A DNA stretch of 64,000 nt. Source: Roseinatronobacter alkalisoli. GTDB lineage: Bacteria > Pseudomonadota > Alphaproteobacteria > Rhodobacterales > Rhodobacteraceae. Shown here piece by piece: positions 18,673 through 63,915 of the stretch. The position numbers and the translations under genes are program-made. The stretch lies in NCBI RefSeq assembly GCF_028745735.1, contig NZ_JAQZSM010000004.1, positions 124,001 through 188,000 of the forward strand, written 5' to 3'. Each line of letters starts with the position of its first letter. The stretch's first letter is position 1. The notes below the pieces were generated by a model. That model did no database searches and was not told where the DNA came from. It saw nothing but the letters and a program-made list of their open reading frames with translations.

Positions 18673-20004
18673 ATGACACTCGATCTGGCAAGTTTTGCAG
18701 CTGAACGCGGCATCAGATACTTCATGATCTCCTTCACCGATCTTTTTGGCGGACAGCGCGCGAAACTGGTGCCCGCGCAGGCCATCGCCGATATGCAGCG
18801 GGCGGGCGCGGGGTTTGCCGGTTTCGCCACTTGGCTGGACCTGACGCCTGCGCATCCTGACATGCTGGCCGTGCCGGACCCGTCATCGGTCATTCAGTTG
18901 CCATGGCAGCCGGATGTGGCCTGGGTGGCAGGCAATTGCGTCATGGAAGGGCAGGATGTCGCGCAGGCCCCGCGCAATGTGCTGCGTCGCCTGATTGATG
19001 AAGCCGCCGCCGAAGGGCTGCATGTCAAGACCGGGATTGAGGCCGAATTCTTCCTGCTGACCCCCGCGGGTGACCAGATATCGGACCCGTTCGATACGGC
19101 GGCCAAACCCTGCTATGACCAGCAGGCGGTGATGCGCCGCTATGACGTGGTGCGCGAAATCTGCGATTATATGCTGGATCTGGGCTGGGGCCCGTATCAG
19201 ACTGACCATGAAGATGCGAATGGCCAGTTTGAAATGAACTGGGAATTTGACGATGTGCTGGTGACTGCCGACAAGCACAGCTTTTTCAAGTTCATGACCA
19301 AATCCGTGGCCGAAAAGCACGGCTTCCGCGCCACCTTCATGCCCAAACCCATCGAAGGGCTGACCGGCAACGGGTGTCACGTGCATATTTCGGTCTGGGA
19401 TGGCAAGGGTAAGGATGCGAAAGCCAATGTCTTTGCCAGCGACAAGGGGCAGGGCCAGACGGGTGAGGTCGGCCTGTCCGACAAGGGGCGCGCGTTTCTG
19501 GGCGGCATCATGAAACATGCCTCGGCCCTGGCGGCGATCACCAACCCCACAGTGAACAGCTACAAGCGCATCAACGCGCCGCGCACCATTTCGGGGGCCA
19601 CATGGGCACCCAATTCCGTGACATGGACCGGCAATAACCGCACTCATATGGTGCGCGTACCCGGACCGGGGCGGTTTGAACTGCGCCTGCCGGACGGTGC
19701 GGCAAACCCCTATCTGTTGCAGGCAGTCATCATCGCGGCGGGGCTTAGCGGCATGCGCAGCAATGCCGATCCCGGCAAGCGCTGGGATATCGACATGTAT
19801 GCCGAAGGTCACAAGGTCGAAGGCGCGCCAAAACTGCCGCTGAACATGCTTGATGCGCTGCGCGCCTATGAAGCGGATGGCGAATTGATGCAGATGATGG
19901 GGGTGGAATTCTCCAAAGCCTATCTGAAGCTGAAGAAACAGGAATGGAATTCCTTCGTGTCGCATTTCAGCCGCTGGGAACGTGAAAACACACTGGATAT
20001 CTGA
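18673..20004 (+). CDS. gmaS: Gamma-glutamylmethylamide synthetase
   Basis: The 443-residue protein is a glutamine-synthetase-like ligase that joins methylamine to glutamate with ATP. GS signatures are GIEAEFFLL (metal-binding Glu), GNGCHVHISVWDG (ATP-binding His region), NPTVNSYKRINAPRTISGA and RFELRLPDGAANPYLLQA. Compared with GlnA it lacks the adenylylation-tyrosine loop region at the C-terminus as far as I can see. Its place after mgsABC makes gmaS much more likely than a general GS or a polyamine ligase. A hairpin terminator follows the stop. Confidence 0.92.
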   Translation: MTLDLASFAAERGIRYFMISFTDLFGGQRAKLVPAQAIADMQRAGAGFAGFATWLDLTPAHPDMLAVPDPSSVIQLPWQPDVAWVAGNCVMEGQDVAQAPRNVLRRLIDEAAAEGLHVKTGIEAEFFLLTPAGDQISDPFDTAAKPCYDQQAVMRRYDVVREICDYMLDLGWGPYQTDHEDANGQFEMNWEFDDVLVTADKHSFFKFMTKSVAEKHGFRATFMPKPIEGLTGNGCHVHISVWDGKGKDAKANVFASDKGQGQTGEVGLSDKGRAFLGGIMKHASALAAITNPTVNSYKRINAPRTISGATWAPNSVTWTGNNRTHMVRVPGPGRFELRLPDGAANPYLLQAVIIAAGLSGMRSNADPGKRWDIDMYAEGHKVEGAPKLPLNMLDALRAYEADGELMQMMGVEFSKAYLKLKKQEWNSFVSHFSRWERENTLDI

Positions 20005-20090: not shown

Positions 20091-20260
20091 AAGCGCGCGC
20101 CAGCGATGGGCCGGGGTCTGCCGGTCCGGCATGGGCGAAGTTCACTTTATGCAGGCGGCATAATCCTGAGTTCATAGGCTTGGCATGACATCAGCGAAAC
20201 CGGCAGGCCGCGGGACGGCCCACCGGTGGCGCGGCGGGCTGCGCCCTTTGCTCCGCGCCT
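20091..20260 (+). repeat. Dispersed ~170-bp structured repeat, copy 1
   Basis: This is the first of four related intergenic elements. Left arm GGGCCGGGGTCTGCCGGT (20108-20125) pairs with the right part, where ACCGGCAG (199-206 of the 20 kb block) and GGCCCACC (20217-20224) are reverse complements of CTGCCGGT and of GGTGGGCC. The variable centre contains GTTCACTTTATGCAGGCGGC. It lies between the convergent gmaS and accA genes. No terminal target duplication or coding content is evident. Confidence 0.85.
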
Positions 20261-27520: not shown

Positions 27521-27691
27521 AGGCGCGGAGCAAAGGCCGGTAGGCCGCCGCGCCACCGGTGGGCCGTCCTGCGGCCTGCCGGTTTCGTTGGCGTTGTTTC
27601 AGTCGTTGGAAGGCAGGATTGTGGAGCCTGCATAAAGTGAATTCTTCCAACGTAGAACCGGCAGACCCCGGCCCACCTATGGCGCGGGCTT
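27521..27691 (-). repeat. Dispersed ~170-bp structured repeat, copy 2 (inverted)
   Basis: Read on the minus strand, this copy has the same left arm GGTGGGCCGGGGTCTGCCGGT region, the central TTCACTTTATGCAGGCTCC box and the right part ending in TTTGCTCCGCGCC. Its left end reads CCGCGCCAT and pairs with GTGGCGCGG of the right end, while copy 3 has CGCTAT with GTAGCGCG, a compensatory change. It lies between pgm and tdm, 55 bases after the pgm stop. Confidence 0.85.
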
Positions 27692-52563: not shown

Positions 52564-54777
52564 ATGTCTCAAACTGCCGCGCAGGACGCGCAAACAGAAG
52601 CCGATAACATTGCCAAAGGCGTTGACAATGAAATCGTCACCGGAAACCAACGTGTTTTTGCCGGTGTGGTCGGAATTGTTGTCACAACTTTATGTATTCT
52701 CTACACGGTGTTCCATGTTGGTGCGATGAATGGTCTGCATGACCGCATCACCGATTTTCTGGGCCTCGCGTCGATTGACCTGACAGAACCCTGGCGCTAC
52801 CGCCTGATCCATGTCGCCGGTGGTCTGGCACTTGGGTTCATCCTGTTTTCGGCGCGTGCCTTGCATGATGAAAGCACGGATGCACCGCTGTCAATTGCCG
52901 AAAAGGGCCTGCTGGCCGCTGGTGGCGCGCTGATCCTGCTGGCGCTTGGTCAGGTGTCGGTCATGTTGCTGACAGGCGATAGGGTGACCACTGGTGCGCC
53001 TGCTGGCAAATATATCATGACCTTTGGGTATCCGCTGATCGGGGGCACCGTTCTGGTGCTGCTGGCAAGCTGGATTCAACCCATCCGCAACCGCACGAAC
53101 CTGTCGGTGGCAGATACGCTGCTTGCCGTCGCGGCCATTGTCGTCGGTATCTATATCATTGGCCATGCCGATTTGCTGCGCACCCGCGCGCAGGTCTTCC
53201 CGCATGCCAATGACATGTGGGCATCTATCGCGGGGATCATCCTGATCCTTGAATTGACGCGGCGTCTGGCGGGGCTGGCGCTGGTTATCATTGTTGGTGT
53301 GTTTCTGGCCTATGGGTTTGTCGGGCCGTGGTTGCCGGGTGTTCTGAACCATCGCGGTTATGCGCCTGCGCGCTTCTTTGGCTTCATTTATACCGATAAT
53401 GGTATTCTTGGGCCGACAACCGCAATTTCATCCACCTATATCATTTTGTTCATCACCTTCGCCGCGTTCCTTCAGGCCAGCCGCGTGGGCGAGTATTTCG
53501 TGAATTTCGCCTTTGCGGCGGCAGGTGGCACGCGCGGGGGGCCCGCCAAGGTGGCGGTGTTCGCATCCGGCCTGATGGGCATGATCAATGGCACATCGGC
53601 AGGGAATGTTGTGTCCACCGGCTCACTGACCATCCCGCTGATGAAGAAGGTCGGATACCGCCCCCAGACCGCCGCCAGTGTCGAGGCGGCGGCCAGTTCC
53701 GGCGGACAGATCCTGCCGCCCATCATGGGCGCGGGCGCCTTCATCATGGCAGAGATTACGGGCATCGCTTACCGTGACATCGTGATTGCCGCGATCATTC
53801 CGGCGATCCTGTATTTCACATCCGTCTATTTTATGGTCGACAAGGAAGCACTGAAAAAGGGCATGAAGGGCCTGCCGCGCGATATGCTGCCGCGTTTTGA
53901 CGTGCTGGCGCGGCGGGTGTTCCTGTTCATCCCCATCATCATCCTGATCGGTGCGCTGTTCATGGGGTATTCGGTCATCCGTGCAGGCACCCTTGCGATG
54001 GCGTCGGCGGCAGTGGTCAGCTGGTTCACGCCGCACAAGATGCTGGTGAAGGAAATCCTTTATGCGTTCGAGATTGCCGCGCGCATGTCGCTGCAACTGG
54101 TGGCGGTCTGTGCGGCAGCAGGGATTATCGTTGGTGTTATCGCCCTGACAGGTGTGGGCACGCGGTTTTCGTCCATGCTGCTGGGCCTTGCGGGGCAAAG
54201 CCAGCTTCTGGCGCTGGTTTTTGCGATGCTGGTGGCGATCATCCTTGGCATGGGCATGCCGACAACGGCGGCCTATGCGGTGGCAGCGGCGGTTATCGCG
54301 CCGGGGCTGATCCGCATGGGGATTGAACCTCTGACGGCGCATTTCTTCATCTTCTACTATGCGGTGATGTCGGCCATCACCCCGCCGGTTGCGCTTGCGG
54401 CCTACGCGGGGGCTGCGATTGCGCAGTCAGATCCGATGCGCACATCGGTTGAAAGTTTCAAGATTGGTCTGGCCGCGTTTATCGTGCCCTTCATCTTCTT
54501 CTTCAACGATGGCCTGCTGATGCAGGGGGACTGGTTCAACATCATCCATGTGTTCTTTACCGCGCTGTTGGGTATCTATCTTCTGGCATCTGCGGTGCAG
54601 GGGTGGCTGTTCGGCGACATTGGCTGGCCGCTGCGCCTTGTCGTGGGCGCGGCTGCGATTGCGATGATTTCGGGCGGGTGGATTTCAGATGCGCTCGGCC
54701 TTGGTGTGGCGGCGCTGGTGTTCTTTATCCAGCGCGGGTTGATCACACCCAAAAACGTGGTCAAAGGCCACGACTGA
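52564..54777 (+). CDS. Fused TRAP transporter permease (DctQM-type)
   Basis: The 737-residue protein joins a small four-span DctQ-like N-terminal part (about residues 35-190) to a large 12-span DctM-like part. Family marks are PWLPGVLNHRGYAPARFFGF, VAVFASGLMGMINGTSAGNV, SSGGQILPPIMGAGAFIMAE, GMGMPTTAAYAVAAAVIAPG and YYAVMSAITPPVALAAYAGA. The fused form and the GTxxGN-P-S sequence belong to TAXI-TRAP systems. It imports organic acids with a Na+ or H+ gradient. A strong terminator follows its stop. Confidence 0.92.
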   Translation: MSQTAAQDAQTEADNIAKGVDNEIVTGNQRVFAGVVGIVVTTLCILYTVFHVGAMNGLHDRITDFLGLASIDLTEPWRYRLIHVAGGLALGFILFSARALHDESTDAPLSIAEKGLLAAGGALILLALGQVSVMLLTGDRVTTGAPAGKYIMTFGYPLIGGTVLVLLASWIQPIRNRTNLSVADTLLAVAAIVVGIYIIGHADLLRTRAQVFPHANDMWASIAGIILILELTRRLAGLALVIIVGVFLAYGFVGPWLPGVLNHRGYAPARFFGFIYTDNGILGPTTAISSTYIILFITFAAFLQASRVGEYFVNFAFAAAGGTRGGPAKVAVFASGLMGMINGTSAGNVVSTGSLTIPLMKKVGYRPQTAASVEAAASSGGQILPPIMGAGAFIMAEITGIAYRDIVIAAIIPAILYFTSVYFMVDKEALKKGMKGLPRDMLPRFDVLARRVFLFIPIIILIGALFMGYSVIRAGTLAMASAAVVSWFTPHKMLVKEILYAFEIAARMSLQLVAVCAAAGIIVGVIALTGVGTRFSSMLLGLAGQSQLLALVFAMLVAIILGMGMPTTAAYAVAAAVIAPGLIRMGIEPLTAHFFIFYYAVMSAITPPVALAAYAGAAIAQSDPMRTSVESFKIGLAAFIVPFIFFFNDGLLMQGDWFNIIHVFFTALLGIYLLASAVQGWLFGDIGWPLRLVVGAAAIAMISGGWISDALGLGVAALVFFIQRGLITPKNVVKGHD

Positions 54778-54836: not shown

Positions 54837-54923
54837 ATGGTTGTGTTGCTGCGATGTGTTGTTGTCGCCGGATAGAGACGGGGCAGGGGCAATTGGCCTG
54901 AAGGGGACGTTCGCGCTTGGATC

Positions 54924-55091
54924 AAGCCCGCGCTATCGGTGGGCCGGGGTCTGCCGGTCCGGCGTATGAGGAGTTCACTTTATGCAGGCTCCATATTCCG
55001 GCTTTCAAGGTTTGAATCAGCATCAGCCAAACCGGCAGGCCGCGGGACGGCCCACCGGTAGCGCGGCGGCCTGCGGCCTTTGCTCCGCGCT
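54924..55091 (+). repeat. Dispersed ~170-bp structured repeat, copy 3
   Basis: This copy starts AAGCCCGCGCTATCGGTGGG and ends GGCCTTTGCTCCGCGC. CTGCCGGT (54951-54958) pairs with ACCGGCAG (55031-55038), and the outer CGCGCTATCGGTGGGCC pairs with GGCCCACCGGTAGCGCG apart from one position. Its left flank (GGCCTGAAGGGGACGTTCGC, from 54895) is shared with copy 4 only. It lies between the convergent TRAP permease and MttB-family genes. Confidence 0.88.
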
Positions 55092-55161
55092 TCTGACACT
55101 CCCAAATGTCCTCAACAGCCCAATACCGGACACGCCCCTTGCATGTCCGGCTTGTTCAGCC

Positions 55162-56715
55162 CTACCCGAATGCGTCGGGTTCGGATGCCTTGCGCTGGTC
55201 GATGAATGCCTGAATCGCTTCTGCGATGGCGGGGTCAAGGGCGGGCTGCTGATAATCGCCCAGCATTTTTGCGACCCGCGCGCTGGCCAGCGCCTGCGTG
55301 TCGCGCGCACCTTCTTCGTCCCATGTCTCGAAGGGTTTGTAATCCAGCAGATCGGACCGCCAGAACGCGGATTTGAAATTGTCCTGCGTATGGCTGCATC
55401 CCAGAAAATGCCCGCCCGGCCCGACTTCGCGCAGGGCATTCATGGCCTGACCGTTTTCGGACATGTCGATCCCGCGTGCCAGATGGTGCAGCGCACCAAG
55501 CTGGTCGGCATCCATGACGAATTTCTCATAGGATGCAACCAGCCCGCCTTCCAGCCAGCCACAGGAATGCAGCATGAAGTTCACGCCCGCCAGCAATGCC
55601 ATGTTCAGGCTGTTGGCGGTTTCATATGCAGCCTGCGCATCTGGCAGTTTGGACCCGCAGAATGACCCGCCGGACCGGTAAGGCAGCCCCATTCGCCGCG
55701 CCAGTTGCCCCGCGCCATAAGTGATCAGCGCTGCTTCGGGTGTCCCGAAGGTGGGTGCGCCGGAATTCATGTCGATGGATGTCACGAACGCGCCGAATAT
55801 GACCGGCGCACCGGGGCGGACCAGCTGGCTATAGGCAACGCCCGCCATCACCTCTGCCAGAACCTGGGTCAATGTGCCAGCCACAGTGGTCGGTGCCATA
55901 GCACCCCCAACAATGAAGGGCGAGATGATGCAGGCCTGATTTGCCCGCGCATAGATTTCCAGCGCGCCCATCATCACGGAATCAAATGTCAGCGGGCTGT
56001 TGATATTGATCAGCGAGGTCATGACCGTGTTCTGGTCCACGAAATCCGAGCCGAACAGCAGTTTTGCCATTTCAACGGAATCGGCTGCGCGCACAGGTTC
56101 CGTGACCGACCCCATGAAGGGCTTGTCGGAATACAGCATATGCGCCTGCAACATATCCAGATGGCGCTTGTTCACGGCAATATCAGTGGGTTCGCAGACA
56201 GTGCCGCCGGAATGGTGCAGCCATTTCGACATATAGCCCAGCTTCACGAAATTGCGGAAATCTTCCATCGTGGCATAGCGGCGGCCACTCTGGGCATCGC
56301 GCACGAAAGGCGGGCCATAGACCGGGGCCAGCACCAGATTGCGCCCGCCGATTTCGACATTGCGTTCAGGGTTGCGCGCATGCTGGGTGAAGCCCGAAGG
56401 GGCAGTTGCACAAAGCTGCCGGGCCAGCCCGCGCGGAATGCGCACCCGCTCGCCGGTGATTTCGGCCCCTGCAGCACGCCAGCGGTCCAGCGCTTCAGGG
56501 TTGTCCACGAAATTGACACCGATTTCGGCCAGAACGGTTTCGGCATTGGTTTCGATGATGGACAGCGCTTCTTCGTTCAGCACGTCCAGATTGGGGATAT
56601 TGCGGCTGATATAGCGCGCGGTTTCCACGCTGACCGCGCTGCGTGCTGCGCGTCGTGCAGCGCCGCCACCCCCGCGTCCACGCCGCCCTGCTGCCTGTTC
56701 TGCTGCTTCTGTCAT
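55162..56715 (-). CDS. Trimethylamine methyltransferase (MttB) family protein, non-pyrrolysine
   Basis: The 517-residue protein belongs to the MttB/COG5598 superfamily: GVNFVDNPEALDRWRAAGAE, YGPPFVRDAQSGRRYATMED, VLAEVMAGVAYSQLVRPGAP and EVGPGGHFLGCSHTQDNFKS. It has no in-frame TAG, so it lacks pyrrolysine and should not act on trimethylamine. Characterised members of this type demethylate quaternary amines such as glycine betaine onto a corrinoid protein. No corrinoid protein gene is adjacent. ATG 56715 precedes a Gly/Arg-rich N-terminal tail (RRGRGGGGAARRAARSA). It is divergent from nadA and convergent with the TRAP genes. Confidence 0.88.
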   Translation of the reverse strand: MTEAAEQAAGRRGRGGGGAARRAARSAVSVETARYISRNIPNLDVLNEEALSIIETNAETVLAEIGVNFVDNPEALDRWRAAGAEITGERVRIPRGLARQLCATAPSGFTQHARNPERNVEIGGRNLVLAPVYGPPFVRDAQSGRRYATMEDFRNFVKLGYMSKWLHHSGGTVCEPTDIAVNKRHLDMLQAHMLYSDKPFMGSVTEPVRAADSVEMAKLLFGSDFVDQNTVMTSLININSPLTFDSVMMGALEIYARANQACIISPFIVGGAMAPTTVAGTLTQVLAEVMAGVAYSQLVRPGAPVIFGAFVTSIDMNSGAPTFGTPEAALITYGAGQLARRMGLPYRSGGSFCGSKLPDAQAAYETANSLNMALLAGVNFMLHSCGWLEGGLVASYEKFVMDADQLGALHHLARGIDMSENGQAMNALREVGPGGHFLGCSHTQDNFKSAFWRSDLLDYKPFETWDEEGARDTQALASARVAKMLGDYQQPALDPAIAEAIQAFIDQRKASEPDAFG

Positions 56716-57080
56716 CGGTCCGGCACCCCATAGCCATATGTGATTGCCGCGCAACGCGGGCATACCGGCGGCGCGCGACGCTTTTTCCTGTTACCTTGAT
56801 ACTGCCCTTCGTGGCCCGTCAATCGCCGGTTTGCGGCGCAATAGGGTGCAAAGCGACATCGCATTGCGGCGCTTGGCTGGACAGCGCGAATGCAAAGGGT
56901 TAAGTGCGGCATAAGACCTTGGGTCAAAGGCAACAGGAGGAATTGCCACCCCCCCGATGCTGCGGGTCAACCCGTGCAGATTCCGGCCTTGCTGGCTTGA
57001 TTTGCCTTGATCTGCATCGTTTTCTCACCATATCAAACCTTCTCGCCCGAAAGGGCGCCGATTGTCACCGGAGCCTTGCC
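56716..57080. other. 365-bp gap between the MttB-family gene and nadA
   Basis: No gene or RNA is recognised. It contains the short direct repeat CTTGATTTGC / CTTGATCTGC (about 56998-57018) and a GCCCGAAAGGGC hairpin (about 57046-57057) just before nadA; either may be part of nad regulation, but I cannot tie them to a known operator. GGAG precedes nadA at 57070-57073. Confidence 0.4.
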
Positions 57081-58130
57081 ATGCTGGATATGCCTGCCAT
57101 CCGCCAGGACTTAAACGCCCTATATGATCTGGCGCCAAACCCCGAACTGGCGGCCAGTATGGGGGCGGAATATGCACGCATGTCGCGGGTGGTCTCGCCT
57201 GTGGACTGGGCCATTCATGCACCCTATGTCGCCGCGATCAACACCCTGAAAAAGCAGCGTAATGCCACCATTCTGGCGCATAATTACATGACGCCGGAAA
57301 TCTTTCACGGGATTGCCGATGTGGTGGGCGACAGCCTGCAACTGGCGATCGAGGCCACGCGCACGAAGGCCGATGTGATCGTGCAATGTGGTGTGCATTT
57401 CATGGCCGAAACATCCAAGATCCTGAACCCCGCGAAAATGGTGCTGATGCCCGATATGGGCGCGGGCTGTTCGCTGGCCGACAGCATTACCGCCGAAGGC
57501 GTTGCGCAGATGCGCGCGCGTTATCCCGGCGCGCCGGTTGTGACCTATGTCAACACCACTGCCGAAGTGAAGGCCGCATCCGACATATGTTGCACATCGT
57601 CCAATGCAGTGCAGATTATACGCGCGCTGGATGCTGATACCATCATCATGACGCCGGACAAATATCTGGCGCAGAATGTGGCCGCGCAGGTTCCGGAAAA
57701 ACGCATCGTCTGGTGGGACGGGTCTTGCATCGTGCATGAACAATATACCGCGCGCGATATTCGCGAATTCCGCGACTGGAACCCCGGCACCCGCATTATC
57801 GCCCATCCCGAATGCCCCCCCGATGTGGTGGCAGAGGCCGATTTTTCCGGCTCCACCTCTGGCATTCTGGAGTATGTCAGCCGTGAACGCCCGGAACGCG
57901 CCATGCTGGTGACAGAATGTTCCATGGCGTCCAACATCTCGGATGCACACCCGGAAGTGGAATTCATCGGCCCGTGCAATATGTGCCCCTATATGAAGAT
58001 GATCACGCTGGAAAAAGTGCTGTGGTCGCTGCACACCATGACCACCGCAGTAGAGGTTGACCCTGCAGTTGCCGACAAGGCGCGTCTGGCGGTGCAGCGC
58101 ATGATCGACCTTTCCGCGAAAAAGGCCTGA
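57081..58130 (+). CDS. nadA: Quinolinate synthase
   Basis: The 349-residue protein has three cysteines that bind the 4Fe-4S cluster, in QCGVHFMAETSKILNP, DICCTSSNAV and CNMCPYMKMITL, and the conserved ILAHNYMTPEIFHGIADVVG and GSTSGILEYV segments. It condenses iminoaspartate with dihydroxyacetone phosphate to quinolinate. ATG 57081 is supported by GGAG upstream; an extension back to 56904 has no conserved residues. It is the first gene of nadA-nadB-nadC. Confidence 0.95.
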   Translation: MLDMPAIRQDLNALYDLAPNPELAASMGAEYARMSRVVSPVDWAIHAPYVAAINTLKKQRNATILAHNYMTPEIFHGIADVVGDSLQLAIEATRTKADVIVQCGVHFMAETSKILNPAKMVLMPDMGAGCSLADSITAEGVAQMRARYPGAPVVTYVNTTAEVKAASDICCTSSNAVQIIRALDADTIIMTPDKYLAQNVAAQVPEKRIVWWDGSCIVHEQYTARDIREFRDWNPGTRIIAHPECPPDVVAEADFSGSTSGILEYVSRERPERAMLVTECSMASNISDAHPEVEFIGPCNMCPYMKMITLEKVLWSLHTMTTAVEVDPAVADKARLAVQRMIDLSAKKA

Positions 58131-58134
58131 CCAC

Positions 58135-59697
58135 GTGCTGCGCACCGACCGCGTGGTGATTGTTGGTGCGGGCCTTGGCGGGCTGTATGCGGCCCTGTCG
58201 CTGGCCCCGCATCCGGTTCTTGTCATCTCGCCCGAGGCATTGGGCGAAGGGGCATCCTCGGCATGGGCGCAGGGCGGGGTTGCCGCCGCGATGGCGGCCC
58301 ATGACAGCCCCGAATCCCATGCCAGCGACACGCTTGCCGCAGGCGCGGGCACTGTTGATGCTGGCGTGGCCAATATGGTCACACAGGCCGCGCGCGACCA
58401 TATTCTGGACCTGGCGGCGCGGGGCACCCCTTTTGATCGCGATGCGGACGGGCAGTTTCAGCTGAACCACGAAGCCGCGCATTCCACCGCACGGGTTGTG
58501 CGCGTCAAGGGCGATCAGGCCGGCAAGAAAATCATGGAAACATTGATTGCCACTGTGCGCGCCACCCCGTCTGTACAGGTGATGGAAGGAGTTGTCGCGC
58601 AGGCACTGGATGTCGAAGACGGGCGCGTGACGGGCATCTGGCTGGCGCGCGCTGCGGGCGGGTCACAGTCTGTGCGGCTGCATGCACCTGCGGTGTTGCT
58701 GGCCGGGGGCGGGTCAGGCGGGCTGTATGCGCTGACCACGAACCCGCCGCGCATTCGCGGGCAGGTGATGGGGCTTGCCGCGCGGGCCGGGGCCATGATG
58801 GCGGATATGGAATTCATCCAGTTCCACCCCACCGCAATGGATCTGGGTCTGGACCCGGCCCCCCTAGCAACCGAAGCGCTGCGCGGGGCAGGGGCCAGGC
58901 TGGTGAATGCGCAAGGCGTGTATTTCATGGATGGCCAGCACCCGCAGGCTGATCTGGCACCGCGCGATATTGTGGCGCGTGCGGTTTTCGCGCAGACGCA
59001 GCGCGGATTGCGACCCATGCTGGATATGCGTGCCGCTGCGGCTGGCGCCGATCTGGCCGCGCGGTTTCCTGCGGTTCATGATGCCTGCATGCGCGCCGGG
59101 CTGGACCCTGCGCAAGTGCCCGTGCCTGTGGCCGCTGCGGCGCATTACCATATGGGTGGGGTCGCAACTGACCGGATGGGGCGGTCCAGCCTGCCGGGGC
59201 TTTGGGTCTGTGGTGAAGCGGCATCCACAGGGCTGCACGGGGCGAACCGGCTGGCATCGAACGGTGTTCTGGAAGCGCTGGTCTTTGCGCGCGCGGCGGC
59301 GGCGGATATCGCGCTGACCCTGACCGGCCCTGCCGATACGCCGGTGGTCGCGCTGGATTTCCCCGCAGGCGGGGTGGCACTGGACGCGGATGGCGTGATG
59401 CAACTGCGCCGGACCATGAGTGCGCATGTCGGTGTCCGGCGCAGCGCGCAGGGGCTGGCACAGGCGCTGACGGTGCTGAATGATCTGGAAACCACCTATG
59501 CGGACAGTCCCGATTTCAGCAATATGTGCGCCACTGCAACCCTGATTGCTGCATCTGCCTATGCCCGGCGCGAAAGCCGTGGCGCGCATTGGCGTGATGA
59601 TTTTCCGCAATCCGACGCCGCGCAGGCCATGCGCAGTTTCATGACATTGACCCAGGCGCATCAGGTGCGCGCCACTGCGATGACGGAGCATTCATGA
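58135..59697 (+). CDS. nadB: L-aspartate oxidase
   Basis: The 520-residue flavoprotein has VVIVGAGLGGLYAALSLAPH at the N-terminus, SSAWAQGGVAAAMAAHDSPE, HEAAHSTARVVRVKGDQAGK, LLAGGGSGGLYALTTNPPRI, EFIQFHPTAMDLG and the GLHGANRLASNGVLEALVFA C-terminal motif of the succinate dehydrogenase/NadB superfamily. It oxidises aspartate to iminoaspartate for NadA. The start is GTG 58135, four bases after the nadA stop. It overlaps nadC by four bases. Confidence 0.95.
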   Translation: MLRTDRVVIVGAGLGGLYAALSLAPHPVLVISPEALGEGASSAWAQGGVAAAMAAHDSPESHASDTLAAGAGTVDAGVANMVTQAARDHILDLAARGTPFDRDADGQFQLNHEAAHSTARVVRVKGDQAGKKIMETLIATVRATPSVQVMEGVVAQALDVEDGRVTGIWLARAAGGSQSVRLHAPAVLLAGGGSGGLYALTTNPPRIRGQVMGLAARAGAMMADMEFIQFHPTAMDLGLDPAPLATEALRGAGARLVNAQGVYFMDGQHPQADLAPRDIVARAVFAQTQRGLRPMLDMRAAAAGADLAARFPAVHDACMRAGLDPAQVPVPVAAAAHYHMGGVATDRMGRSSLPGLWVCGEAASTGLHGANRLASNGVLEALVFARAAAADIALTLTGPADTPVVALDFPAGGVALDADGVMQLRRTMSAHVGVRRSAQGLAQALTVLNDLETTYADSPDFSNMCATATLIAASAYARRESRGAHWRDDFPQSDAAQAMRSFMTLTQAHQVRATAMTEHS

Positions 59698-60545
59698 CCC
59701 ATTCCCCGCCTTTGCCCGATCTGTTGCTGGAACCGCTGGTCCGCGCGGCCCTGATCGAAGATCTTGGCCCGAACGGCGATGTGACGACGCGCGCGGTCAT
59801 TCCTGCGGACGCGCAGTATAAAGCGCGGCTGAATGCAAGGGATGCGGGGGTGGTGTCCGGCGTGCAACTGGCCTGTATCGCCTTCCGGCTGATGGACCCG
59901 GCGCTGAAGATCGGGATTTTGACCACGGATGGCACGCAGGTCGCAGCCGGTCAGACCATCATGACAATCGAGGGGTCTGCCGCGTCGATCCTGTCGGGGG
60001 AACGGGTGGCGCTGAATTTCGCAGGCCGACTGTCGGGCATTGCGACCCTGACTGCGGCATTCGTGGCGCAAACCGCAGGAACAAAAGCGCGCATCACCTG
60101 CACGCGCAAAACCACACCGGGGTTGCGCATGGTGGAAAAGCAGGCGGTGCTGCATGGCGGCGGCTCGGCGCATCGCTACGGGCTGTCCGATGCGATCCTG
60201 ATCAAGGATAACCATATTGCCGCCGCAGGCGGGATTGCCCCTGTTCTGTGTGCAGCCCGCGCGCAGGCCAGCCATATGATGCGGATTGAAATTGAAGTGG
60301 ATACGCTGGAGCAGTTGCAGGATGTGCTGGATACCGGCGGTGCCGATGTCGTGCTGCTCGACAACATGGATACTGAAACGCTGTCGCGCGCCGTATCGAT
60401 GGCGGCGGGCAGGTTGGTGACAGAGGCTTCGGGTAATATGCGCCTGAACCGTATTGCGGAGGTGGCCGCAACCGGTGTTGATTATATTTCAGTGGGGGCA
60501 CTGACGCATTCCGCGCAAGTGCTGGATCTGGGTCTGGATTTTTAG
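59694..60545 (+). CDS. nadC: Nicotinate-nucleotide pyrophosphorylase (carboxylating)
   Basis: The 283-residue protein has the QPRTase pattern: LVRAALIEDLGPNGDVTTRA, ERVALNFAGRLSGIATLTAA, ITCTRKTTPGLRMVEKQAVL, HRYGLSDAILIKDNHIAAAG, IEIEVDTLEQLQDVLDTGGA and VTEASGNMRLNRIAEVAATG. It converts quinolinate and PRPP to nicotinate mononucleotide. It is coupled to nadB by a four-base overlap. A large inverted repeat follows the stop. Confidence 0.95.
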   Translation: MTHSPPLPDLLLEPLVRAALIEDLGPNGDVTTRAVIPADAQYKARLNARDAGVVSGVQLACIAFRLMDPALKIGILTTDGTQVAAGQTIMTIEGSAASILSGERVALNFAGRLSGIATLTAAFVAQTAGTKARITCTRKTTPGLRMVEKQAVLHGGGSAHRYGLSDAILIKDNHIAAAGGIAPVLCAARAQASHMMRIEIEVDTLEQLQDVLDTGGADVVLLDNMDTETLSRAVSMAAGRLVTEASGNMRLNRIAEVAATGVDYISVGALTHSAQVLDLGLDF

Positions 60546-60556
60546 GCGGGACCATC

Positions 60557-60635
60557 CCGGCGGCAGCCTGCCCGTGCGGCGGCACGCCCCACCCGCCCAC
60601 CCATGCGCGCCCCCGCACGGGCAGGCTGCCGCCGG
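60557..60635. repeat. Perfect 23-bp inverted repeat downstream of nadC
   Basis: The left arm (60557-60579, core GGCGGCAGCCTGCCCGTG) is an exact reverse complement of the right arm (60613-60635). A 33-base, C-rich spacer separates them. It begins 12 bases after the nadC stop, but no T-run follows, so it is not a typical intrinsic terminator. The function is unknown. Confidence 0.85.
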
Positions 60636-60701
60636 AACACGGATGCGTGGGTTGAACCGATCAGCGGTGCAGGGTAATCAGCCTTCAGAAGGTGGCATGG
60701 G

Positions 60702-61370
60702 ATGGCGGCAATAAAAACACAGGCGTTGGCGGCGGGGTTGATCCTTTGTGCCGGGGCACAAATGGTGCAGGCGCATCCGCATATTTTTGTGGATTCGGGG
60801 CTGGAAGTGCTGTTCGACGAAAACGGGCAGCCGGAAGCCCTGCGCATTTCATGGCGCTATGATCCGTTCTTTTCGATGCTTCTGGTCAGCGATATGGGGC
60901 TGGACCCTGATTTCAGCGGCACAGTCACAGAGGCGGAGCAGCCGCTTCTGGACGGTTTCGACATGCAGTGGATTGCAGGCTATCATGGCGACACTCATGT
61001 CACGCAGAACGGGCAGTCACTGGCGCTGAGCGGGCCGGTGGAATGGACATCGGAGTATCGCGACGGCCGGTTATATTCCTCGCATCTGCGTGAATTCGTC
61101 GAGACGCCGGACCCGGCTTTGGAATGGACCGTCTCTATCCATGATCCCAGCTATTACACCAGTTATACCATCAATGATGCGCCGCAGATCACGGGGCGCG
61201 ATGATTGCCGCGCGCGCATTTTCGAGCCTGACTGGGACGCCGCAGGCGCGCAACTGGAGGCCGCGCTGGATGAAGTGCTGGGGGCCGGTGGCGACATCGA
61301 GGTCGAATTCCCACCCGTCGGTGCATTGTTTTCCGAGGAGGTCCGCATCACATGCGCACAGCCATCCTGA
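60702..61370 (+). CDS. DUF1007 family periplasmic protein
   Basis: The 222-residue protein has a signal peptide (LAAGLILCAGAQMVQAHPH, cleavage before HPHIFVDSGLEV). The mature part begins AHPHIFVDSG, with the His residues and SWRYDPFFSMLLVSDMGLDP that are typical of DUF1007. In many bacteria this family is found beside NicO-type nickel/cobalt exporters and is thought to bind metal in the periplasm. It overlaps the downstream transporter gene by 19 bases, supporting a joint role. Confidence 0.88.
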   Translation: MAAIKTQALAAGLILCAGAQMVQAHPHIFVDSGLEVLFDENGQPEALRISWRYDPFFSMLLVSDMGLDPDFSGTVTEAEQPLLDGFDMQWIAGYHGDTHVTQNGQSLALSGPVEWTSEYRDGRLYSSHLREFVETPDPALEWTVSIHDPSYYTSYTINDAPQITGRDDCRARIFEPDWDAAGAQLEAALDEVLGAGGDIEVEFPPVGALFSEEVRITCAQPS

Positions 61371-62281
61371 GTATTGCGGCCCTTGCTGCATTGGTGCTGC
61401 TGGTGTTGTGGGGCATGGGCGGTCTGGACGGGATGAGCGATTGGGCGCAGGCCGCACAGCGCCGGTTTCAGGCGCAGTTGGCGGATGGGTTACGCGCGCT
61501 GCATGCGGGCCAGCCCGGCGCGCTGTTGGCGCTATGGGGGATGTGTTTCGCCTATGGATTCGTGCATGCGGTCGGGCCGGGGCATGGGAAATTCCTGGTG
61601 GGGGCCTATGGTGCCGGTACGCAAGTACCGCTGCGGCGATTGATGGGGGTCAGTCTGGGGGCGTCGCTGGCGCAGGGGGCAAGTGCTGTCGCGCTGGTCT
61701 ATGGTGGCGTGCTGATTTTCAACGCCACGCGCGCAGGCCTGCAACATACCGGCGATATCTGGCTGGACCGGGCCAGCCTTCTGGCGATTGCGGCTATCGG
61801 GTTGTGGCTGTTGTGGCGGGGCGCGCGCCGTCTGGTCGCGCAGCGGCATCTCCAGCCTGCACACGCCCATGACCACGCGCACAACCATGACCACATGCAT
61901 AACCATGATGACGGGACCTGCGAAAGCTGTGGTCACCGCCACGGCCCGACCATGTCAGAGGTGGCGCAACTGCATGACTGGCGTGACACAGCTGCCCTGA
62001 TCAGCGCGATTGCCATTCGGCCCTGCACAGGTGCATTGTTTCTGCTGATCCTGACATGGCGCATGGGGCTGGTCTGGCAGGGGATGGCAGGGGCAATGGT
62101 CATGGCCCTTGGCACGGCATCGGTGACAATGGCGGTTGCTGCACTGGCCGTCATGGCGCGCGAGGGCGCGCTGGGCTGGGCAAGCCGCATGGGGCGGCTG
62201 ACGGGCTTGATGCCGCTGTTCGAGGTGGTGGCCGGGGTATTCATCGTCATTCTGGCCCTGAACATGTTAAAAACTTTCTGA
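61352..62281 (+). CDS. NicO/RcnA-type nickel-cobalt transporter
   Basis: The 309-residue protein has about six or seven membrane spans and the family motif HAVGPGHGKFLVGAYGAGTQ near the first third, plus ISAIAIRPCTGALFLLILTW. Between them is a cytoplasmic His-rich loop (about residues 165-200; HAHDHAHNHDHMHNHDDG and CESCGHRHGP) for metal binding. It is likely an exporter of Ni2+ or Co2+ acting with the DUF1007 protein encoded just upstream. The metal and direction are inferred from family. Confidence 0.9.
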   Translation: MRTAILSIAALAALVLLVLWGMGGLDGMSDWAQAAQRRFQAQLADGLRALHAGQPGALLALWGMCFAYGFVHAVGPGHGKFLVGAYGAGTQVPLRRLMGVSLGASLAQGASAVALVYGGVLIFNATRAGLQHTGDIWLDRASLLAIAAIGLWLLWRGARRLVAQRHLQPAHAHDHAHNHDHMHNHDDGTCESCGHRHGPTMSEVAQLHDWRDTAALISAIAIRPCTGALFLLILTWRMGLVWQGMAGAMVMALGTASVTMAVAALAVMAREGALGWASRMGRLTGLMPLFEVVAGVFIVILALNMLKTF

Positions 62282-62324
62282 CCCCCCTTGCCGTGGGTGC
62301 TGAAGGGCGCGTAAAGCGTGAAAC

Positions 62325-63707
62325 ATGACAGCGCGGACGCACCCATTCGGAAAAGACCTGCGGGCAGTACTGGCCCTTGGGGTGCCGTTGGCAGGCAGCC
62401 ATCTGGCGCAATTCCTGCTGGCGGTGACCGATACCATCATGCTGGGGTGGTATGGGGTGCTGGACCTTGCTGCCGGTGTCATCGGGGCGGCGCTGTTTTT
62501 CACGGTGTTCATTTTTGGCACGGGTTTTGCCAATGCTGTCATGCCCATGGTGGCGACGGCTGCGGCGTCTGATGACGATACCGAAGTGCGCCGCAGCACG
62601 CGCATGGGGCTTTGGCTGTCCATTGCATTTGGTATTGCGGTGTTGCCGTTCTTCTGGTTCTCGGGCACGTTTCTGACCCTTGCGCAGCAGCCCGCCGATG
62701 TGGTGCCGCTGGCAGAAGTCTATCTGCGCATCATCGGTCTGTCGCTGGTGCCAGGGCTGGCTGTCATGGTGTTGAAGAATTATCTGGCGGCGCTGGGGCG
62801 CACGCAGGTTGCGCTATGGCTGACACTGGGTGCTGTGGTACTGAATATCGGGCTGAACTGGATCCTGATTTTCGGCAATCTTGGTGCGCCGGAACTGGGG
62901 GTCCGGGGGGCGGCGCTGGCATCCATTGCGGTCCAGATCGCCACGGTTCTGGGACTGGCGCTTTATTGCGCGCTGCTGCCATCCTTGCGCCGCTATGCGC
63001 TGTTTCAGCGCTTCTGGCGGCCGGATTGGGCGGCGATGGGCCTGGTCTGGCGGTTGGGCTGGCCGATCGGGGTGGCGCTGGTTGCCGAAACCGCGCTGTT
63101 TTCTGCCGCTGCCATCATGGTGGGCTGGATTGGCACGCATGAACTGGCCGCGCATGGCATAGCGCTGGAAATCACGGCCTTGCTGTTCATGGTGCATCTG
63201 GGCTTTTCCAATGCGGCGACTGTACTTGTCGGGCGCGCGCGCGGGCGGCGCGACCAGCAGGCATTGCGCGGGAATGCGCGGGCGGCCACATTCCTGTCCA
63301 TCAGTTTCGCGCTGGCGACGATGGTGGTTTATATCGTGTTCGGTCCGCAGCTTGTGGGGGTGTTTCTGTCCCCTGATGAACCCGCGCGCGATGTTATCAT
63401 CACGATCGGCGCGTCATTTCTGGTGATTGCGGCTGTGTTTCAGCTGGCGGACGGGGCGCAGGTCATGGGGATGGGGCTGTTGCGCGGGGTGCAGGATACG
63501 CGCGTTCCGATGTGGATTGCCGCATTCAGCTATTGGGGGCTGGGTCTGCCTGTGGCCTATGTGTTCGGCATCCGGCTGGGCTGGGGCGGTGAAGGGGTCT
63601 GGGCTGGCCTTGCCGTGGGGCTGAGCGCTGCGGCGCTGGCGCTGATGTGGCGGTTCTGGCGCGGGCCGGGGCGCAGCGATGCGGCCCCCTGGGCACTGGC
63701 CAGATAG
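62325..63707 (+). CDS. MATE-family multidrug/Na+ antiporter
   Basis: The 460-residue protein has about 12 spans in two similar halves and MATE landmarks: LGVPLAGSHLAQFLLAVTDT, MLGWYGVLDLAAGVIGAALF, LNIGLNWILIFGNLGAPELG, VRGAALASIAVQIATVLGLA and GMGLLRGVQDTRVPMWIAAF. It should export organic cations or toxic metabolites using a Na+ or H+ gradient. It follows the NicO gene by 43 bases and may share a transcript. A repeat copy lies just after its stop. Confidence 0.92.
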   Translation: MTARTHPFGKDLRAVLALGVPLAGSHLAQFLLAVTDTIMLGWYGVLDLAAGVIGAALFFTVFIFGTGFANAVMPMVATAAASDDDTEVRRSTRMGLWLSIAFGIAVLPFFWFSGTFLTLAQQPADVVPLAEVYLRIIGLSLVPGLAVMVLKNYLAALGRTQVALWLTLGAVVLNIGLNWILIFGNLGAPELGVRGAALASIAVQIATVLGLALYCALLPSLRRYALFQRFWRPDWAAMGLVWRLGWPIGVALVAETALFSAAAIMVGWIGTHELAAHGIALEITALLFMVHLGFSNAATVLVGRARGRRDQQALRGNARAATFLSISFALATMVVYIVFGPQLVGVFLSPDEPARDVIITIGASFLVIAAVFQLADGAQVMGMGLLRGVQDTRVPMWIAAFSYWGLGLPVAYVFGIRLGWGGEGVWAGLAVGLSAAALALMWRFWRGPGRSDAAPWALAR

Positions 63708-63747
63708 CGGTCGAGAAGGGCCTGAAGGGGACATTTGCACTCGGATC

Positions 63748-63915
63748 AAGCCCGCGCTATCGGTGGGCCGGGGACTGCCGATCCCACGTTCAAAGAATGC
63801 AGTTTATGCAGGCGGCATCCTTCTGAGCTCAAAGGACTGAACTGCCCTTGGATCATCGGCAGGCCGCGGGACGGCCCGCCGATGGCGCGGCGGCCTGCGG
63901 CCTTGATTCCGCGCC
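63748..63915 (+). repeat. Dispersed ~170-bp structured repeat, copy 4
   Basis: This is the most divergent copy. The stem positions read CTGCCGAT (63775-63782) with ATCGGCAG (63855-63862) where the others have CTGCCGGT with ACCGGCAG, so pairing is kept by compensatory changes. The centre has CAGTTTATGCAGGCGGC. Its left flank (GGCCTGAAGGGGACATTTGC, from 63719) matches copy 3. The remaining 85 bases of the window contain no recognised feature. Confidence 0.85.

Follow-up and report, generated by a model that had tools for sequence, protein, structure and literature searches.

A palindromic interspersed repeat of about 168 nt with a conserved plus-strand fold in Roseinatronobacter alkalisoli and other Rhodobacterales

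The 64,000-nt stretch of Roseinatronobacter alkalisoli DNA analysed here (the window) carries four copies of a palindromic repeat, and these copies belong to one family with a conserved plus-strand fold. The element is classed as a palindromic interspersed repeat that does not match the tested features of RAYT-REPINs, tagged REPs, MITEs that make target duplications, or attC sites. The reading that best accounts for it, held at about even odds (a probability of roughly 0.5), is that of a non-autonomous mobile palindrome of ~168 nt. It would be specific to Rhodobacterales, would lodge at gene 3' ends and would be tolerated or co-opted there as a two-way transcript end. With this family, a major group of marine and soda-lake bacteria is seen to carry a structured element that is widespread and present in high copy number. 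The initial annotation of this DNA had described four repeats; the family-wide range, the strand-specific fold and the hypervariable gene slots in relatives go beyond it.

The cores of the four copies are 167–169 nt in length, and all four have a TTTAT box at position 56. Copy 1 (20091–20258, plus strand) is located between convergent genes with stops at 20004 (+) and 20313 (-). Copy 2 (27523–27691, minus strand) is reversed and lies between two plus-strand genes. Copy 3 (54924–55090, plus strand, 167 nt) is the one described in detail below; it is flanked by convergent stops at 54777 (+) and 55162 (-). Copy 4 (63748–63914, plus strand) is also between convergent genes, with a stop at 63707 (+) facing a minus-strand gene. 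The four places named in the initial annotation are thus borne out. The intergenic location that it gave holds as well, but by our own gene calls three of the four copies, and not two, are convergent.

The segment order is F-A-B, a loop with the TTTAT box, B'-A'-M, a small hairpin and T, with pairing of F with M, A with A' and B with B'. In copy 3, with all segments on the plus strand, the 5' closing segment F is at positions 54928–54935 and M is at 55059–55066. A (54936–54945) pairs with A' (55049–55058), and B (54951–54958) pairs with B' (55031–55038); B' and A' can also pair locally with each other. The TTTAT loop box (54979–54983) is invariant in 31 aligned rows and at least 90% conserved in 82 thinned copies. 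A small GC hairpin (GGCC-loop-GGCC, 55067–55078) is in the interval between M and T, and T, the 3' end segment (55085–55090), may replace F as the partner of M. There is an additional outer palindrome in this genus only, GGCCTGAAG...TTCAGGCC, which brings the total to ~230 nt (read by eye). Its left arm in copy 3 is at 54895–54911, and the right arm at 55104–55120 is a partial complement of the left. The outer arms do not co-vary within each copy, since the copy-by-copy pairing score is 9.0 for a copy's own arms, 8.3 between copies and 6.7 for random sequences.

The genome searched is a draft of 4.84 Mb. A 26-nt pattern of the 3' arm (three or fewer mismatches) has 89 matches and a 5'-arm pattern has 108, with zero for the reversed control in each case, which places the repeat family far above chance. 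The loci fetched amount to 113 distinct element places, of which 92 have the 3' arm and the other 21 match the 5' pattern only; 113 is a minimum for this draft and is more than had been claimed. Pairwise identity of 73 full copies has a median of 74%, and the closest dispersed pairs are 95–96% identical. A few copies lack the inner domain or are truncated. The copies at twenty loci with 5'-arm-only matches are complete with a variant 3' arm, truncated at the 3' end or degenerate, and no longer, autonomous version with an internal gene is found at these 20 fetched loci. An extra module of ~45 nt follows M in 11 of the 92 copies. This module is a hairpin (TTTTCCGGGCTTTCGCCGCGCCACTGGCGCGACGG...), a second repeat nested in the element (L036, L054, L056, L040, L042, L047, L083, L069, L010, L012 and L072). 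The density of arm-pattern matches appears uneven by contig, with C38, C98 and C120 dense and C43, C87 and C2 sparse.

The fold is conserved across the family. In an alignment of 113 matches (110 distinct), 94.1% of the cells at paired positions can pair, compared with 28–48% when the partners are slid by one to three columns. Cells changed on both sides number 311, compared with 75 in shuffles, and such changes are present in 23 of 30 pairs. Examples from the 82 thinned copies are pairs 21:132 (GC 46, AT 23, CG 11), 30:117 (TA 37, CG 33) and 19:134 (GC 64, AT 12, TA 6). These pair-type counts are from the best 88 of the 113 rows, 82 after thinning. The alignment used (A4) was fitted to the model structure and the counts lean that way; the mafft-based alignments A2 and A3 give the same main pairs.

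The long stem also shows which strand folds. In F-M, A-A' and B-B' together there are 103 G-T cells and 16 A-C cells among the 82 copies, with 27 of the 103 in the single pair 29:118; the corresponding long-stem counts for this genome alone are 87 and 27. An A-C cell is a wobble on the minus strand only, and the excess of G-T therefore points to folding of the plus strand, as RNA or as single-stranded DNA. Other parts of the structure count against the plus-strand fold, as they display no G-T excess or an opposite lean. The M-T pairing (G-T 4, A-C 7) and the local B'-A' hairpin (5 and 6) have no excess in the 82 copies. In this genome the B'-A' hairpin has 10 G-T and 57 A-C cells, 36 of the latter at one internal-loop position, and the 3' hairpin has 4 and 12. 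B' and A' can form a hairpin of their own (112:140, TA 71, GC 10), so that the element could fold either as one long hairpin or as two. F and T are both complementary to M, and the exclusion between the F-M and M-T pairings is a switch-like feature. In some genera F, M and T change together, e.g., in L141, L143 and L144 (by eye).

In this genome most copies have convergent neighbours, and divergent neighbours are very rare. Both neighbours were called for 91 of the 92 copies, with 62 convergent, 26 codirectional and 3 divergent placements; two pairs of neighbouring copies (L013 and L042) each share one gap and are counted twice among the 92. The background, 388 gene pairs from 424 kb (the window and 18 further stretches), consists of 59 convergent (15%), 270 codirectional and 59 divergent pairs. 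The convergent excess has p values of 1e-18 to 1e-30, depending on the gap filter, and the divergent deficit 3e-4 to 1e-8. There is no sense bias, as 12 codirectional copies are oriented with the genes and 14 against them. This equality fits a constraint at the DNA level better than reading from a neighbouring gene, and leaves a puzzle in that the plus strand folds, yet gene orientation has no effect in this genome. Gene calls are from our own codon-usage script, which was trained on the window and is less reliable in other genera. By this caller, 29 loci elsewhere comprise 8 convergent, 8 codirectional with the genes, 9 against, 2 divergent and 2 not classed, and a convergent excess outside this genome is not established (8 of 27 fully called loci). 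Among six plasmid copies with annotation, three are convergent and three codirectional with the genes, with none against, and the left gene is always in the sense orientation.

Gene ends beside elements have fewer terminators of their own. A T-rich terminator is present at 16 of 106 such ends, from 53 of the 62 convergent copies (both gaps 1–250 nt), and at 22 of 72 ends in element-free convergent gaps (p = 0.016). By side, the counts are 3 of 53 at T and 13 of 53 at F. This fits a partial take-over of termination by the element. The gene to the left of copy 3, which encodes a TRAP protein, keeps its own terminator.

A covariance model was built from 31 copies, 25 from this genome and 6 from named plasmids. 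Searches with such a model had been suggested as a check on the initial annotation; in this genome and its relatives they detect tens of copies, in which the pairing is conserved. The model matches 26 of 37 congeners, with 0 to at least 77 matches per genome, and 11 of the 37 are without a match; copy numbers thus differ widely among congeners. The element is found in 68 of 149 genomes family-wide, representing 35 of 72 genera, and the full-length matches listed are mostly 163–172 nt. A class-wide sample of 144 genomes has two matches, both in the window's own family; 122 of the non-matching genomes in it are listed without family names. Copy numbers and presence are lower bounds throughout, as no more than 77 candidates per genome were scored among the congeners, 19 in the family-wide and class-wide searches and 69 in Ruegeria, and the family-wide, class-wide and Ruegeria searches used stricter filters. 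A pattern scan matched at least 80 named contigs; apart from one MAG with the label Flavobacteriia, we take those listed to be Rhodobacterales by name. Among named plasmids, Roseinatronobacter sp. S2 carries the nearest copy. Phage records have no match to the element. No Rfam family is located on it, either in a gathering scan of the window or in a scan of nine loci at E ≤ 1, and a known ncRNA is rejected on these scans. A literature search of titles and abstract openings revealed no description of this element.

Empty sites exist, as do opposite orientations in the same slot. The genes that flank copy 3 are adjacent without the element in seven of the ten relatives read at this slot (G001, G002, G003, G004, G027, G035 and G036); such element-free loci are what a comparison proposed earlier had been meant to reveal. 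In G028 the copy 3 slot has the element in reverse orientation, and the two genes lie apart in G033 and G034. The copy 4 slot in G028 keeps both flanks and has a shortened copy. Synteny holds on both sides in 202 locus pairs, and in 17 of these, at four loci in all, the element is inverted against its flanks; the pairs are non-independent and mostly from Ruegeria, and three same-orientation pairs represent one genome held twice. No excess of target duplications over shuffled flanks is found in 84 cross-genus or 26 own-genome copies, in agreement with the initial annotation, which saw no obvious ones. The DNA from the right of copy 3 to the left of copy 4 (55157–63712) is collinear with G033:C1:1948337–1956929, and the gene left of copy 3 is ~180 kb distant in G033. 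Both edges of this collinear block fall at elements, as if rearrangement breaks there.

By location and make-up the element appears to work most like REP doublets and ERIC sequences. GTAG- or CGTC-tagged REPs have the tag at the foot of the hairpin and units of 20–40 nt. These REPs and the REP doublets or REPINs are located between convergent or unidirectional genes, and G-T pairs have been noted in their stems. CGTC-type REPs are reported without a dedicated transposase (PMC3733652). Shared features are the high copy number, the intergenic palindromes and the two inverted hairpins with a spacer that can fold as one long or two short hairpins. Here the alternative folds are A-A' with B-B' and B'-A' with A-B. 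Unlike REPs, the element is ~168 nt with a conserved spacer, its length is nearly fixed over 35 genera, and M pairs with F or T. A tagged REP is rejected because the consensus of 82 copies has no GTAG or CGTC tag (by eye) and full-length matches are mostly of the size given above. A RAYT/REPIN system is rejected as well: PF01797 (RAYT, Y1 transposase) has zero matches in this genome and exceeds the cut-off in 2 of 22 relatives without following copy number, and control genomes are positive in 5 of 14 cases.

ERIC sequences of enterobacteria are long, imperfect, intergenic palindromes of 100-plus nt, and to our knowledge no transposase is known for them. The present element is also a long imperfect intergenic palindrome, in a different bacterial group, and is likened to ERIC by description only. 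Like MITEs it is short, non-coding, terminally inverted and dispersed; a MITE that makes target duplications is not supported, given the lack of duplications. No parent element sharing the ends is seen at the 20 loci fetched for 5'-arm-only matches. The earlier proposal of a REP/MITE-like mobile unit therefore stands as to copy-number variation and not as to tagged-REP, RAYT or duplication-making MITE features. Integron attC sites have a strand-specific fold with RYYYAAC and GTTRRRY boxes. The element shares with them a strand-specific fold and, in Ruegeria, a position at the border of exchangeable single genes, but it is dispersed and not arrayed. The two end boxes are present together in 0 of 84 copies, and an attC site is rejected.

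In Ruegeria the element marks hypervariable slots beside core genes. Model copies are present in 30 of 41 genomes, one or two in each (lower bounds). Gene names (pheS, thyX, parE, rplB, desaturase, TRAP and mttB) were read by eye from translations; tool support comes for rplB only, from an L2 leader match beside the gene. The pheS locus holds 20 of the 30 best Ruegeria matches and a second match is within 0.7 kb of pheS in nine further genomes, and the element is at pheS in 29 of the 41 genomes. In the 20 loci the interval from the pheS stop to the T end of the element is 294–620 nt with a GC content of 0.44–0.52. It contains mostly one open frame of 86–200 aa, which starts at or beside the pheS stop codon as seen in the printed junctions; at least the gap in L307 has two frames.

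Single-linkage clustering of the 20 proteins at E ≤ 1e-3 gives 11 clusters (hand count). The F flank is common right up to F in about 11 of the 20 loci (by eye), and on the T side similarity is lost immediately, except between related cargos. The 19 pheS elements compared have a mean mutual identity of 80%, and 61–62% to elements elsewhere. The element is thus retained while the gene beside it is replaced, and in Ruegeria the pheS copy is inherited vertically. The element edge can coincide with a breakpoint in these slots and might be a cause of the exchange. Among the twelve Ruegeria genomes in which the model finds nothing at pheS, gene and element are both missing in three, an AT-rich gene is present in eight, and the remaining one shows an AT-rich gap without a long frame. 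Scans of 13 of the 20 cargos against Pfam gave one match over the cut-off (DUF2513, L305), and scans of seven against PADLOC gave none. A small palindrome (GCCGGGCTTCAGCCCGGC) lies between the common flank and F in several Ruegeria pheS loci (L300, L305, L306, L308, L148 and others).

A second Ruegeria slot, read in eight of the ten loci that remain, is in the interval between the desaturase gene and the rplB leader and has 692–1402 nt of variable DNA. Among its cargos are an AIPR protein (E 2e-22), a TIR protein (PADLOC TIR-TM, E 2e-61) and a polysaccharide lyase (E 3e-13); a SieB-like match is below the cut-off and the other cargos have no match over a cut-off. Recognised defence families (TIR and AIPR) are thus present in two of the eight loci, and most slot genes beyond these match no known family. 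Species-variable genes are also found behind thyX (L139, L141 and L150) and parE (L145 and L147); their matches (HNH/PtuB-like and HEPN) are weak. Roseovarius aestuarii (L213) uses the pheS slot and an Antarcticimicrobium MAG (L260) the thyX slot, each with the element inverted. No match was found between pheS and non-pheS cargos, and a cargo common to several slots is rejected. An AT-rich cargo beside every copy is likewise rejected, as the flanks in this genome have no mean GC dip; a GC deviation of -0.08 or lower is found at 5 of 47 loci and 2% of random places (Mann-Whitney p = 0.04). The element provides a sequence handle on these slots, which can be found by scanning for it.

A mobile palindrome would presumably be moved by machinery that recognises the folded single-stranded element. 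After insertion, its stems might end the transcripts of both converging genes, and insertions there would then be harmless or useful. Its palindromic edges may be prone to breakage, and accessory genes would then be gained and lost next to it, as at the slots in Ruegeria. This reading accounts for the uneven copy number, the empty sites, the flips and the avoidance of divergent (promoter) regions, and a single-stranded DNA intermediate would account for a plus-strand fold without sense bias. Several results count against it: no transposase by the PF01797 searches, no target duplications, no autonomous version at the 20 loci and the vertically kept pheS copy. The near-constant length and the age of the fold would also suit a functional element better than a parasite. 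The terminator of the gene left of copy 3, the convergent share elsewhere, the consistent sense of the six plasmid copies and the pairings without a G-T excess count against this reading as well.

Some of these points favour a cis-acting RNA under selection, which would terminate transcripts from both sides and stabilise 3' ends. Its function would keep it at gene ends, and it would have spread mainly by homologous transfer and not by mobility of its own. This is a tentative alternative to the mobile palindrome. The covarying fold and narrow length range over 35 genera, the tolerance of G-T on one strand, the scarcity of other terminators on the T side, the pheS copy and the plasmid copies behind sense genes are all consistent with it. 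It does not predict the lack of sense bias, here or at other loci (8 with and 9 against), nor the own terminator of the TRAP gene, and a range from 11 congeners without a match to at least 77 copies is hard to explain by function alone. The 3'-UTR RNA element of the initial annotation agrees with location and fold, but not with the lack of sense bias in this genome.

The Ruegeria slots raise a different possibility, that of a folded single-strand recombination site, attC-like in action, which joins or exchanges single accessory genes. The change of sequence right at T with a common element, the diversity of the pheS cargos, the further slots at rplB, thyX and parE and the plus-strand fold agree with such a site. 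It is nevertheless unlikely: the attC boxes never occur together, some loci have their cargo beside F, such a gene occurs in eight Ruegeria genomes that lack a model match, and AT-rich neighbours are confined to a subset of loci. Homologous exchange could also yield the same picture. A related and equally doubtful proposal is that the element is the site of a Rhodobacterales cassette system, in which an enzyme would join single accessory genes, some for phage defence, at T or F. On this proposal the enzyme would place such genes directly behind core-gene stops (pheS and parE, for example), and the many copies in a genome such as the present one would be amplified sites without cargo. A gyrase-BIME-like site, at which a topology or nucleoid protein would bind duplex DNA in positively supercoiled convergent space, would suit the convergent excess and the near-invariant TTTAT box, but it is very improbable, as what is conserved is pairing with one-strand G-T tolerance, which duplex binding would not give, and 11 of 37 congeners have no match.

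Some loci in other genera have two to four adjacent copies, partial or full (L146, positions 1501–2112; L189; L244). A match to a SorX-type sRNA (RF02784) is present in another genus at positions 2856–2930 of L137, ~1.2 kb from an element.
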